Of a DNA stretch of 20,545 bases, positions 3,284-15,830 are shown piece after piece. The notes under the pieces were generated by a model, which was not told the DNA's origin, did not search any database, and saw only the letters and a program-made list of their open reading frames with translations. The position numbers and the translations under genes are program-made. The stretch covers positions 1 through 20,545 of IMG/VR virus record IMGVR_UViG_3300032240_000827, one strand, 5' to 3'. How positions within the stretch are numbered: position 1 is the stretch's first letter; each line of letters opens with the position of its first letter. The DNA is from a virus.

Positions 3284-3345
3284 ACCGCAAGAGCCTCTCT
3301 CTTGCGGTTATGCGGGAAACGCATAAGGGGGGAACCGTTCCCCCC
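3284..3345. repeat. Three contiguous hairpins, including palindrome copy 4
   Basis: Three perfect inverted repeats abut with no spacer: ACCGCAAGAG/CTCTTGCGGT (3284-3293, 3299-3308, 5-nt loop), TTATGCG/CGCATAA (3308-3314, 3320-3326, 5-nt loop) and the fourth palindrome copy, extended to GGGGGGAAC/GTTCCCCCC (3327-3345). In the leftward transcript they follow the TGATTAA stop of the 138-aa gene. No U-tract follows, so an RNA-stability or protein-binding structure, or a polarity element, is likelier than a simple terminator. Confidence 0.85.
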
Positions 3346-3349
3346 TTAA

Positions 3350-3766
3350 TCACAGAGCGGCCTTGAAAGCCTTTTTCTGTGCGGGTGTCAGGGCGGCGTA
3401 CTCCTTGAGCAGTTTCGCAACGACATCGACCTCGACCTTGGCCGAACTACTACGCTTTGCGGCCTTGGCATCAGCCGCACCAGTGGCAACATCGACCAAG
3501 TAGCGCACACGGTTGTACGGCTTGCTATCCTTGATGAACGTCAGTTCCCCGCCATTGCGACTCGGATGTGGTTGCACATCCATGACTTCAGCGACATACG
3601 CCACGGCAAAGGGTTTGATGTCAGGCCCGACAATGCCCGCCTTGGCAAGGGCCTCCGCCCATTTGTCCGATTGCGCCTCAATCTGTTTGAACACCGCAGA
3701 GGCGGCGGCGTATGCGTTGCTGTTCATGGCGATGAAAGCCTTAACGTGGTTGATTGCTTTGCTCAT
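3350..3766 (-). CDS. Ala/Lys-rich protein of unknown function (138 aa), first gene of leftward operon
   Basis: ATG at 3766 follows AAGGAG at about 8 nt, and the gene ends with TGA directly before the three-hairpin cluster. The N-terminal ~45 residues form Ala-rich helices (AYAAASAVFKQIEAQSDKW). A central segment with PHPSRNGGELTF and YNRVRYLVDV looks like beta structure. The C-terminal ~45 residues are Lys/Ala-rich, with a Ser-Lys linker and a final helix TPAQKKAFKAAL, giving a basic tail that could contact nucleic acid. It is the first recognisable leftward gene, so it is probably expressed early if this operon is early. No family is recognised. Confidence 0.85.
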   Translation of the reverse strand: MSKAINHVKAFIAMNSNAYAAASAVFKQIEAQSDKWAEALAKAGIVGPDIKPFAVAYVAEVMDVQPHPSRNGGELTFIKDSKPYNRVRYLVDVATGAADAKAAKRSSSAKVEVDVVAKLLKEYAALTPAQKKAFKAAL

Positions 3767-3784: not shown

Positions 3785-3801
3785 GGGGGAACCGTTCCCC
3801 C
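3785..3801. repeat. Palindrome copy 5, at the head of the leftward operon
   Basis: This is an identical 17-nt core, located 15 nt before the AAGGAGTTTCC ribosome site of the 138-aa gene. Unlike the other copies it has no intact gene upstream. The flank reads CAAC on the minus strand where copies 1 and 2 read TAAC (stop codon plus C), so the element may have moved with, or outlived, a gene end. Confidence 0.9.
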
Positions 3802-4097
3802 GTTGCTTTGCTCAGGGCCAATCCCTAAGCTAACTCCATTGTGCACACCCCCCGTTTTGATCGGGGTTGAGCCCCTTGTTTTCGGGGTATTTTCGGCCTC
3901 ATTTTCCCCCTGAAACGGCAACTTTCGACCCCCACCCATCCCCCACCACCCCTTTTTGACGACCCCCGACCATCAGGACTACAACACTGTTTCTCACCCG
4001 CAAATCCAATTTTTCAAAACTCAGCCCCAACATGACCCACCCCAAAAATTTTATAAAAATTTCCATGCACTCTTGTCCAACATTTGACACAGCCCAT
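3802..4097. other. Divergent intergenic region with extreme C/G strand asymmetry; packaging-site or promoter candidate
   Basis: No gene is supported here. By hand count, 3921-4090 has about 67 C and 13 G on the + strand. Two small GC hairpins (CCCCG/CGGGG near 3847 and CCCC/GGGG near 3871) are followed by the C-tract block and an A/T-rich stretch around 4045-4060 that contains TATAAA on both strands. On the minus strand TTGGAC lies about 19 nt upstream of TATAAA, a weak leftward promoter candidate. Position directly upstream of TerS is typical for a cos or pac site. The function is inferred from position only. Confidence 0.4.
3929..3952 (-). other. G-quadruplex-forming motif on minus strand
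   Basis: The + strand has C5-A-C3-AT-C5-ACCA-C4. The minus strand therefore has four G-tracts of at least 3 G with loops of 4, 2 and 1 nt, which satisfies the usual G-quadruplex pattern. If the leftward operon starts near 4050 this would be in its 5' untranslated RNA. Confidence 0.6.
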
Positions 4098-11622: not shown

Positions 11623-12555
11623 ATGGCTATTTCACGCGCACAACTGCTCAAAGAATTGCTTCCCGGTCTGAACGCTTTGTTCGGTATGGAGTACGCACGC
11701 TACGGCGAAGAGCACAAAGAAATCTACGAAACAGAGAAGTCTGAGCGTAGCTTTGAAGAAGAAACCAAGCTGGCCGGTTTCGGCGCTGCTCCGGTCAAGA
11801 ACGAAGGTTCTGCCATTGCTTATGACAATGCGCAGGAAGCGTTCACTGCCCGTTACAGCCACGAAACCATCGCCTTGGGCTTCGCCATCACTGAAGAAGC
11901 TGTTGAAGACAACTTGTACGACAGCCTGTCTGCTCGCTACACCAAGTCTTTGGCACGCGCCATGGCCTACACCAAGCAAGTTAAAGCTGCTTCCATTCTG
12001 AACAACGGTTTCAGCGGCTCTTACTTGGGTGGTGACGGTGTGTCGCTGTTCGGTGTGAACTCTTCCAGCACTCGCGTTGGTCACCCACTCATCAACGGTG
12101 GCGTGAACTACAACAGCCCAAGCGTTGCAGTCGACTTGAACGAAACATCGTTGGAAAACGCTGTGATTCAGATCGCTGCTTGGACTGATGAACGTGGTCT
12201 GTTGATCGCTGCCCAGCCCCGTAAGCTGATTATTCCTCCAGCACTGCAATTCGTTGCAACCCGCTTGTTGGAAACCAGCCTGCGTGTTGGTACAACCGAC
12301 AACGACATCAACGCGTTGAAGAACAACGGTTCGATCCCAGAAGGTTACGCAATTAACCACTATCTGACCGACGTCAATGCTTGGTTCTTGACAACAGACG
12401 TGCCAAACGGTCTGAAGCACTTTGAGCGTTCGCCTCTGACGAACTCTATGGACGGTGACTTCGACACTGGTAACGTCCGTTACAAGGCCCGTGAGCGTTA
12501 TTCGTTCGGCTGGTCTGATCCCCTCGGTATGTGGGGTTCTTCAGGTTCGACCTGA
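11623..12555 (+). CDS. Major capsid protein, HK97-fold, Mu gpT-like
   Basis: AAGGAG precedes the ATG by about 7 nt. The 310-aa product resembles Mu-like major head subunit gpT proteins: LLKELLPGLNALFGMEYARY at the N-terminus, an EEHKEIYETEKSERSFEEE segment, then FTARYSHETIALGFAITEEA and SLARAMAYTKQVKAASILNN, matching the long spine helix and E-loop region of the HK97 fold. The C-terminal FDTGNVRYKARERYSFGWSD resembles the conserved end of the family. It forms the icosahedral shell. Codon choice is strongly biased, as expected for the most abundant virion protein, and a strong terminator follows 7 nt after the stop, so high mRNA dosage of this segment is likely. The fold assignment is from memory of the family. 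Confidence 0.92.
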   Translation: MAISRAQLLKELLPGLNALFGMEYARYGEEHKEIYETEKSERSFEEETKLAGFGAAPVKNEGSAIAYDNAQEAFTARYSHETIALGFAITEEAVEDNLYDSLSARYTKSLARAMAYTKQVKAASILNNGFSGSYLGGDGVSLFGVNSSSTRVGHPLINGGVNYNSPSVAVDLNETSLENAVIQIAAWTDERGLLIAAQPRKLIIPPALQFVATRLLETSLRVGTTDNDINALKNNGSIPEGYAINHYLTDVNAWFLTTDVPNGLKHFERSPLTNSMDGDFDTGNVRYKARERYSFGWSDPLGMWGSSGST

Positions 12556-12562
12556 TAAAGTG

Positions 12563-12592
12563 AAAAAGGGGCCTTGTGCCCCTTTTTCTTTT
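12563..12592 (+). terminator. Strong intrinsic terminator after the capsid gene
   Basis: AAAAAGGGGC (12563-12572) and GCCCCTTTTT (12578-12587) pair perfectly around a 5-nt loop, followed by CTTTT. The A-tract/T-tract symmetry could also stop transcription on the other strand. It separates capsid mRNA from the connector/tail genes. Confidence 0.93.
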
Positions 12593-12596
12593 GGTG

Positions 12597-12683
12597 TATA
12601 TTGGGCCATCCGGGCTTTCCGGTGTATCAAACCGTCCCGGCGGACGTCATGCAAGATTGATACACCTTTAACTGCATGAAGGA
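12597..12683 (+). ncRNA. Structured RNA candidate with H-type pseudoknot downstream of the gpT-like capsid gene
   Basis: Stem 1 is GGTGTATCAA (12621-12630) with TTGATACACC (12657-12666). Its loop holds a small hairpin CGTCC-CGGC-GGACG (12633-12646) and TCATGCA (12647-12653), which is the exact complement of TGCATGA (12673-12679) downstream of stem 1. This interleaving defines an H-type pseudoknot. Its last arm abuts AAGGA (12679-12683), the ribosome site of the next gene, so folding could gate translation. A Mu-gpT downstream-element RNA (Mu-gpT-DE) was described for this genomic position; identity is from memory and untested. A TATATT at 12597 with TTGTGC 17 nt upstream is a weak promoter candidate. 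Confidence 0.55.
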
Positions 12684-12689
12684 AAAATC

Positions 12690-13160
12690 ATGGGATTCGC
12701 AACACACCTTGGCCCTTGGCTGCTCGGCACCGTCAAAAACACAACTGGCACTACCGCTGGCACAGTTCAGAACACTGGCGCAACCCTTGTTGCCCAATCA
12801 TTTAACCTGACCGCTGCTCAAGTGGCTACAGGTAGCATTGCTGCTGGTTTCATTCCCGCAGGCGCGGCAATCACCGACGTCCAGATTTTGACCACCACGC
12901 TGTTTGCTTCAGCCACCACGCTGCAAGTAAGCATCGGCGGTACTGCGACTGCTACCGCAACCACCATTACGTCGGCTGGCACGTACCCCATCACTATCGC
13001 GGCTGGGTTCACGCCTACACAGGCCAACGTGGGCTCGACTGATGCAGCGATCTTGTTTACAACTACAGGCTCTTCGAGCACTGGCGCAGCCACCGTCATC
13101 ATCAGTTACATGGTGCGTGATTCCAGCGGCTCTATGGCCCCATCGGCAACACAGCAGTAA
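12690..13160 (+). CDS. Probable virion surface or neck protein, beta-rich (156 aa)
   Basis: The ATG follows AAGGA at 6 nt, just behind the pseudoknot candidate. The product is very Thr/Ala/Gly/Ile-rich with almost no charged residues. It starts with a short hydrophobic stretch (MGFATHLGPWLLGTV) and continues as alternating beta-type sequence (ITDVQILTTTLFASATTLQV, TYPITIAAGFTPTQANVGST), as in small phage decoration or fibre-like proteins. No cleavable signal sequence is convincing. The hairpin terminator starts 7 nt after the stop. The family is not recognised; a structural role is inferred from composition and the morphogenesis neighbourhood. Confidence 0.75.
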   Translation: MGFATHLGPWLLGTVKNTTGTTAGTVQNTGATLVAQSFNLTAAQVATGSIAAGFIPAGAAITDVQILTTTLFASATTLQVSIGGTATATATTITSAGTYPITIAAGFTPTQANVGSTDAAILFTTTGSSSTGAATVIISYMVRDSSGSMAPSATQQ

Positions 13161-14847: not shown

Positions 14848-15081
14848 ATGAAAGCGCCGCAGCAATCCCTGAAAGACTGGGGCGACCAGAAATGGCGCAC
14901 CAAGTCCGGCAAACCGTCAAGCAAGACTGGAGAGCGTTACTTACCGGAGAAGGCAATTAAAGCGCTATCCCCGGCAGAGTACGCAGCCACCACGAGAGCA
15001 AAGCGGGCAGGTAAAGCAGCAGGTAAACAGTTTGTGGCGCAGCCAAAAGGCATAGCCAAAAAAACAGCGGGGTATAGATAA
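14848..15081 (+). CDS. Tiny basic protein, TGERYLPEKAIKAL family (77 aa)
   Basis: ATG 14848 follows the previous TGA by 1 nt. The frame is open further upstream, but that part overlaps the previous gene and has no ribosome site. The 77-aa product reads SLKDWGDQKWRTKSGKPSSK, then TGERYLPEKAIKALSPAEYA and a Lys/Ala/Arg tail. This pattern is very widespread in phages and some giant-virus and bacterial genomes (from memory), often without function. It is strongly basic. The TAA stop overlaps the next ATG by 1 nt (TAATG), so translation is coupled to the Gly-rich protein. Confidence 0.8.
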   Translation: MKAPQQSLKDWGDQKWRTKSGKPSSKTGERYLPEKAIKALSPAEYAATTRAKRAGKAAGKQFVAQPKGIAKKTAGYR

Positions 15082-15830
15082 TGGCTTACGGCGATTACAT
15101 GGGCGGTTACGGTCAACAGATGCAAAACCCTTTTATGGGTGGCTACGGTGGCGGTATGGGTGGCTACGGTGGCGGTATGGGTGGCTACGGCGGCGGTATG
15201 GGTGGCTACGGTGGTGGCTACGGCGGCGGTATGGGTGGCTACGGTGGTGGCTACGGTGGTGGCTACGGTGGTGGCAACCCTTACCAGATGCAGAACCCCT
15301 TCATGGGTGGAGGCATGGGCGGCTTTGGCGGCGGCGGTAACCCATATCAAATGCAGAACCCCTTTATGGGTGGTGGCATGGGTGGCTACGGTGGCGGCTT
15401 CGGTGGCGGCATGGGCGGTTACGGTCAACAGATGCAAAATCCTTTCATGGGTGGCGGCTTCGGTGGCGGCATGGGCGGATTTGGCAGAGGCAATCCTTAC
15501 CAGATGCATAACCCCTTCATGGGCGGTCAACAGCAACAACAGCAACAACAAAATCCGTTTTCCGGGCTTGATTCAAAAGCAATAGAAGCAGACCCACAAA
15601 AGTTTGTGCAGTGGTTGCGCACGCAACAAGCTCAGAGTAACAGTAGGAATATGCAAGGGGGCAACTTCCCGAACGTACCAACAAACGAAGGCCCTATAGG
15701 CGGTCCTATGGGTATGCTTCAGCAAGCGAATAGCGCACAGCCCATGACTGTTGGCAACACGCTGCCTTTGCAAATACCAACTCAACCCTCACCAGCAGCC
15801 CCAACAGACTATCAAGGCGGAGTAAGCTAA
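15081..15830 (+). CDS. Gly/Tyr/Met-rich low-complexity virion-type protein (249 aa)
   Basis: The gene is coupled by TAATG to the previous one. The N-terminal ~155 residues are built from two repeat types, GGYGGGM units and NP(Y)QMQNPFMGG units, with very few charges. A poly-Gln run (QQQQQQQQ) ends this part. The C-terminal ~95 residues differ: NPFSGLDSKAIEADPQKFVQ forms a short helical segment, then a Pro/Gly/Gln-rich disordered tail. The composition resembles sticky or phase-separating low-complexity proteins. The DNA repeats could change copy number by slippage. Function is not recognised; a virion-associated adhesive or assembly role is speculative. Confidence 0.8.
   Translation: MAYGDYMGGYGQQMQNPFMGGYGGGMGGYGGGMGGYGGGMGGYGGGYGGGMGGYGGGYGGGYGGGNPYQMQNPFMGGGMGGFGGGGNPYQMQNPFMGGGMGGYGGGFGGGMGGYGQQMQNPFMGGGFGGGMGGFGRGNPYQMHNPFMGGQQQQQQQQNPFSGLDSKAIEADPQKFVQWLRTQQAQSNSRNMQGGNFPNVPTNEGPIGGPMGMLQQANSAQPMTVGNTLPLQIPTQPSPAAPTDYQGGVS
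15135..15275 (+). repeat. Tandem 21-nt repeats encoding (M)GGYGG(G) units
   Basis: Units of ATG GGT GGC TAC GGT GGC GGT recur head to tail, at first exactly 21 nt apart and then as shortened 12-nt GGC TAC GGT GGT units. Third-position C/T changes keep the protein repeats. The region is prone to slippage and in-frame length change. Confidence 0.85.

Follow-up and report, generated by a model that had tools for sequence, protein, structure and literature searches.

The window analysed here, a 20,545-nt IMG/VR virus record, raises the question of what RNA is encoded between its capsid gene and the gene that follows, and which of the two genes that RNA serves. The genes of the window and their order match those of podoviruses, e.g., phage DSL-LC04 and Roseobacter phage CRP-901. 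A sequence-only reading of this DNA had proposed a pseudoknotted RNA at 12597-12683, placed it downstream of a Mu gpT-like capsid gene, and likened it to the Mu-gpT-DE class (RF03012; PMC7657543). The identity of the upstream neighbour was borne out, as the protein encoded at 11623..12555 scored 49.2 bits against Pfam Phage_capsid_4 and 23.5 bits against Mu-like_gpT, and corresponds to the PHROG major head protein. The knotted RNA itself belongs to the downstream (cement) gene rather than to gpT. It is an unlisted RNA with a rare double-pseudoknot fold and, judging from its sequence and those of its relatives, it probably acts as a structured leader that gates translation of the cement protein. 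The features of the locus are collected in Table 1.

Table 1. Features of the capsid-cement intergenic region and its flanking genes, in window coordinates
Feature	Position	Strand	Evidence or remark
Major capsid protein gene, Mu gpT-like, 310 aa	11623..12555	+	Upstream neighbour of the RNA; Pfam, PHROG
Intrinsic terminator ending the capsid-gene transcript	12562..12588	+	11-bp stem followed by T run; equivalents in relatives
Promoter -35 element TTGTGC, in the terminator loop	12574..12579	+	TTG at 17-nt spacing in relatives
Promoter -10 element TATATT	12597..12602	+	5/6 match in 81/89 relatives
Helix Pa, 5' strand CCGGG, 5' end of the RNA	12610..12614	+	Covaries with the Pb loop
Helix Pc, 5' strand	12621..12630	+	10/10 pairs with double changes, 96.9% paired
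Conserved unpaired A	12631..12631	+	95% of 98 sequences
Hairpin Pb, 5' strand CCG	12632..12634	+	100% paired; 3/3 pairs with double changes
Helix Pa, 3' strand CCCGG, within the Pb loop	12636..12640	+	Covariation with the 5' strand
Hairpin Pb, 3' strand CGG	12641..12643	+	Covariation
Conserved unpaired AC	12644..12645	+	96% and 94% of 98 sequences
Helix Pd, 5' strand	12647..12653	+	6/7 pairs with double changes, 80.2% paired
Conserved unpaired GA	12655..12656	+	94% and 98% of 98 sequences
Helix Pc, 3' strand	12657..12666	+	Covariation
Helix Pd, 3' strand, abutting the Shine-Dalgarno	12673..12679	+	Register to the Shine-Dalgarno kept in 98 relatives
Shine-Dalgarno AAGGA	12679..12683	+	Sequence; 6 nt before ATG
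Cement/decoration protein gene, 156 aa, beta-rich (predicted)	12690..13160	+	Homologue annotation, AlphaFold/Foldseek

Two exact complements, GGTGTATCAA at 12621-12630 with TTGATACACC at 12657-12666 (helix Pc) and TCATGCA at 12647-12653 with TGCATGA at 12673-12679 (helix Pd), are interleaved. The sequence-only reading had combined these same arms with an internal hairpin, the 3-bp Pb, into a pseudoknot, and this fold is supported by the relatives; helix Pa was not part of that reading, and the 5' part of its interval (12597-12602) proved to be the -10 box of a promoter, while the rest stands as RNA. The last arm does adjoin the ribosome site, as had been claimed, since the Pd 3' strand and AAGGA (12679-83) have one base in common. 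A scan of both strands of the 20.5-kb window for exact H-type pairs of 10+7 bp within about 80 nt returned the 12621-12679 pair as the sole case, and 200 dinucleotide shuffles of the window yielded three such cases in all. Minimum free-energy (MFE) folding without pseudoknots gave no significant signal for the region (window z -0.9 to -1.4) and did not show the structure. Because MFE folding does not single the region out, the window sequence alone is suggestive and the relatives must decide. Two further pairings were set aside: UUUCC at 12616-20 with GGAAA at the Shine-Dalgarno (SD), noticed by inspection in the window and in a small number of relatives, is not conserved, and a local CCGG/CCGG hairpin rivalling Pa is enriched, not universal, so that a switch through it is not claimed.

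The sequences of the relatives cover the region between the capsid and cement genes, and 89 motifs from it were aligned without reference to structure. In this structure-blind alignment 89.9% of the cells pair, against 73.4% in shuffled versions, double changes occur in 22 of the 25 pairs, and sliding the partner by one column reduces pairing to about one third. When 80 capsid-gene loci were searched with a covariance model containing only Pb and Pc (R1), most of them had the motif, usually once, and 98 matches were aligned with this model. Pa and Pd, which are absent from R1, covary on the R1-made alignment above every shuffle (0.268 vs 0.170; n = 98). For the full four-helix structure in the 98 relatives, 90.1% of the cells are paired (71.1% in shuffles) and the covariation is 0.552, compared with 0.221 in shuffled alignments and reached by 0 of 500 shuffles. 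With the register left free, at least 5 bp form in 97 of the 98 sequences both for Pa (about 51 when the 5' arm is swapped between sequences) and for Pd (about 65 when swapped). Compensatory changes in relatives, on which the earlier proposal had staked itself, were found in all four helices, and a double pseudoknot of four helices, kept across relatives with differing letters, is well supported by these alignments.

Only five unpaired bases are near-fixed, namely A12631, A12644, C12645, G12655 and A12656. The start of the SD hexamer lies between -7 and +3 nt from the end of Pd in the 98 relatives, and Pd touches or overlaps the SD, within 3 nt, in 98 of 98. One divergent leader (locus L149), about 80 nt before its cement gene, is without the 5' Pa strand; CUAGG at the SD site is the complement of its Pb loop, CCUAG, and the loop may pair directly with the SD.

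The RNA is most likely the 5' end of the mRNA of the next gene, because the capsid gene is followed by a terminator and then by a sigma70-type promoter about 7-10 nt before Pa. A -10 box with 5/6 matches lies ahead of Pa in 81 of the 89 relatives, whereas about 16 are expected from shuffles, and its distance to Pa is about 7-10 nt in most of them. TTG is found exactly 17 nt before the -10 box in 59 of 89 relatives, versus 0-9 at other spacings. By this sequence pattern, the transcript would most likely start at about 12609-12610, i.e., at Pa. A simple consensus scan had returned no promoter, a result that was discarded because the weakness of the -35 element had caused the real promoter to be overlooked.

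The protein encoded at 12690..13160 has no confident family match in Pfam or PHROG. Its homologue in DSL-LC04, with 33% identity, is annotated as a cement protein. The AlphaFold model (pLDDT 74) retrieved, in Foldseek, 7eel (Pam1) at rank 1, 7dn2 (KHP30) at rank 2 and 8h89 (GP4) at rank 6, with the KHP40 cement protein also near the top of the list; the E-values are modest (0.002-0.014 overall, 0.002-0.009 for the three ranked entries) and the TM scores moderate (about 0.4-0.5). Cement identity is assigned because the top structural matches agree on cement proteins despite the modest E-values, and the model points, with moderate confidence, to an Ig-like capsid cement fold similar to those of Pam1, KHP30 and GP4.

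The association between this gene type and the RNA is exclusive. Two pattern scans of viral contigs, which used the RNA core only and no proteins, gave 229 complete cases, and a cement-type gene comes next in 229 of 229 (N-termini TFxGPv, THLGPW or SIWRS), a count that includes eight scripted as 'other' and reassigned by eye as variants or mis-picked start codons. Inserts longer than 300 nt separate the capsid gene from the RNA at 28 of 98 loci, mostly an endonuclease, GIY-YIG- or HNH-like by eye, and such inserts between the RNA and the cement gene occur at 0 of 98 aligned loci. By BLAST, the cement proteins form three or more clusters with different bodies and related N-terminal arms (MGFATHLGPW, TTFxGPv), and the RNA subtypes are mixed freely among the protein families; such mixing speaks against a strict pairing of one protein with one operator. 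We infer that the gene at 12690..13160 is controlled by the leader.

The mechanism proposed is as follows. Comparison of the relatives indicates that the capsid-gene transcript ends at the terminator and that the sigma70-type promoter restarts transcription, so that the RNA most likely begins at Pa. Pa pairs the 5' end of the RNA with the Pb loop, Pb sits inside Pc, and Pd interleaves with Pc and ends at the SD. The closing and opening of Pd with Pc would set the ease of 30S ribosome binding. The leader would thereby gate translation of a protein needed in large amounts, about one per capsid subunit as in GP4, where cement and capsid proteins are equal in number (540:540; PMC9698820), and this equality gives the tuning of cement supply a reason. 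A 5' end buried in Pa would probably slow mRNA decay as well. The candidate triggers would be feedback by a capsid-shell protein, fixed tuning, or a host factor. Because the overlap between Pd and the SD in the window is a single base, the SD may be only partly sequestered, or the knot may raise translation instead of repressing it. The locus suggests RNA-level control of the capsid cement supply in phages.

Among systems studied by experiment, the closest is the leader of T4 gene 32, a pseudoknot that is bound by gp32, its own protein (PMC3014915). Like the window RNA, the T4/T2 gene 32 element is a pseudoknot in the 5' leader of the mRNA for an abundant phage protein (PMC3014915); it consists of two helices located 67 nt upstream of the start codon, whereas the window RNA has four helices ending at the SD. 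A 2010 review considered that T4 gene 32 might be the sole viral case of a pseudoknot in translational autoregulation (PMC3014915).

By analogy with gp32, the knot could be an autogenous operator to which excess cement or capsid protein binds, shutting off cement synthesis. The exclusive link of the RNA to cement genes, the T4 precedent (PMC3014915) and the N-terminal arms kept across different bodies all agree with this, but the free mixing of RNA subtypes with protein families, and the spread of the protein bodies over several clusters, leave it an unlikely explanation. Stabilization of the mRNA as the main role, with translation not switched, is likewise doubtful. On this reading, a start flush at Pa would bury the 5' phosphate end and block 5'-end-dependent decay (RppH/RNase E or RNase J), and the cement mRNA would stay plentiful. 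The short distance from the -10 box to Pa would indeed place the 5' end within a helix, the scarcity of conserved unpaired bases leaves no obvious ligand site, and no T4 message is more stable than that of gene 32, whose leader likewise holds a pseudoknot (PMC3014915). Yet a simple hairpin would be enough for such a purpose, Pd and its fixed register to the SD would be superfluous, and Mu-gpT-DE, which is without Pa, still appears to pair with the start codon.

A trans-acting sRNA, or a 3'-UTR element of the capsid gene, is what the name Mu-gpT downstream element and the Rfam type 'Gene; sRNA' suggest, and in the loci read the RNA does follow the capsid gene; with a terminator and a promoter between that gene and the RNA, a capsid-RNA link broken by inserts, no terminator separating the RNA from the cement gene, and the SD at the 3' arm of the RNA, we give this reading hardly any credence. 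Riboswitches of the preQ1-II and SAM-II types are compact pseudoknots ending at the SD, and in preQ1-II the knot carries an embedded hairpin and its last strand meets the SD. A small-molecule riboswitch sensing the state of infection would match this form, but is very improbable: only five unpaired bases (A, AC, GA) are conserved, and the RNA is found before a structural gene only. The conserved bases of preQ1-II (RF01054) differ from those of the window RNA, which is without queuosine genes downstream. The search with riboswitch pseudoknot models that had been proposed earlier produced no Rfam riboswitch match, preQ1-II reaching 17.2 bits against a cut-off of 47.

A translational leader is also what comparison with Mu-gpT-DE favours. 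The assignment to that class made in the sequence-only reading stands for the place, after a gpT-like capsid gene, and, we argue, for the junction and topology, and fails for the Rfam model, which at its cut-off of 49 bits matched neither the window motif nor those of close relatives; among the relatives' motifs the only overlap with RF03012 was at L144, with 10 bits, far under 49. R1 had zero matches in 63 Mu-gpT-DE loci, and at gathering and relaxed thresholds no Rfam family fits the window RNA. In CRP-901, RF03012 matches with 72.3 bits at the equivalent position and ends in the start codon of the cement homologue, which shares 31% identity with the window protein.

Like the window RNA, Mu-gpT-DE lies between a gpT-like capsid gene and a cement gene, and it is preceded by a terminator and often by a -10-like box as well. 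The common order is outer helix - A - hairpin - AC - arm - GA - outer helix, with the equivalence of the A/AC/GA junctions drawn by eye; the strands run Pc - A - Pb - AC - Pd - GA - Pc in the window RNA and CCUG - A - hairpin CAG..CUG - AC - AnUAGCCAn - GA - CAGG(AG) in Mu-gpT-DE. The 3' arms of both classes are at the translation start, those of Mu-gpT-DE holding the SD and the start codon. Mu-gpT-DE differs in being 53 nt long, with a fixed CCUG/CAGG helix that holds the SD and a near-invariant UAGCCA facing the start codon, and in having no helix Pa; UAGCCA and the CCUG/CAGG helix are absent from the window RNA, which has UCAUGCA and a 10-bp Pc without the SD instead. Because the Mu-gpT-DE of CRP-901 has the same place, junction nucleotides and pseudoknot order, the window RNA is likely a distant relative or functional equivalent of this class, not a member by model, and their architecture and place lead us to infer common descent.

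The UAGCCA of Mu-gpT-DE can, by base complementarity, pair with the start codon region UGGCUA as a second pseudoknot helix, which is invisible to the Rfam model because the model ends at AUG. The loci considered were the RF03012 loci L168-L287, L552-L671 and L672. GCCA faces UGGC in all 207 distinct leaders, a result that is weak alone because the pattern fixed GCCA and most genes start with Met-Ala. When the whole viral collection was scanned for a different base at the fourth place, three matches came back, only one of them a real leader (L672), and this leader is compensated, GCUCA facing UGAGC with AGC as codon 2. Where position 2 is U, 17 of 77 leaders have the codon GCA; where it is A, none of 108 do (Fisher p = 1e-7), even though U-U mismatches occur often at that position. 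The class thus looks like a translational leader, not an sRNA, and the orphan Mu-gpT-DE gains a testable role, that of a leader pairing with the start codon of a cement gene. A bolder proposal, which we consider rather improbable, would join the window RNA and Mu-gpT-DE in one superfamily of 5'-terminal pseudoknot switches that couple cement translation to capsid assembly in abundant aquatic phages, the signal being a shell protein; if true, it would represent RNA-level stoichiometry control for virion building, with the cement protein's conserved N-terminal arm as the key.

The window-type RNA is widespread in freshwater and marine phages, its shape recurring in hundreds of relatives despite differing letters, and its cultured carriers are DSL-LC04 and Pelagibacter phage HTVC023P. 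R1 found a match in 19 of 24 larger records, a single one in 17; in one record the second match was at noise level only. A 65-kb contig (G032; L065, L311, L312) has the locus at both ends, with different cement families, and each end is composed of a capsid gene, an endonuclease-like gene, the leader and a cement gene; this double locus probably represents variant alleles or a mixed assembly of variants. A scan of a genome collection gave 18 matches, with the real motif on two MAG contigs (L292, L297); several of the 18 are high-GC actinobacterial sequences and were taken as chance.

Some other observations concern the surroundings of the RNA. The stretch from the capsid terminator to the promoter of the leader has repeatedly taken in endonuclease-like genes (GIY-YIG- and HNH-type by eye), at L011, L014, L016, L029, L030, L057, L065 and other loci, and is a hot spot for mobile genes of this kind. 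Directly behind the capsid stop, L097 and L104 have tRNA-like stretches with an acceptor-like stem and a T-arm-like GGTTTxAATCC, in which ARAGORN called no tRNA. Elsewhere in the window, positions 15081-15830 encode a 249-aa protein rich in glycine and tyrosine, in which GGYGGGMGGYGGG-type repeats stand in tandem. The near-palindrome GGGGGAACCGTTCCCCC occurs five times in the leftward gene region (1237-1262, 1657-1682, 2806-2831, 3328-3353 and 3785-3810), and its copies are perhaps an operator or terminator repeat.
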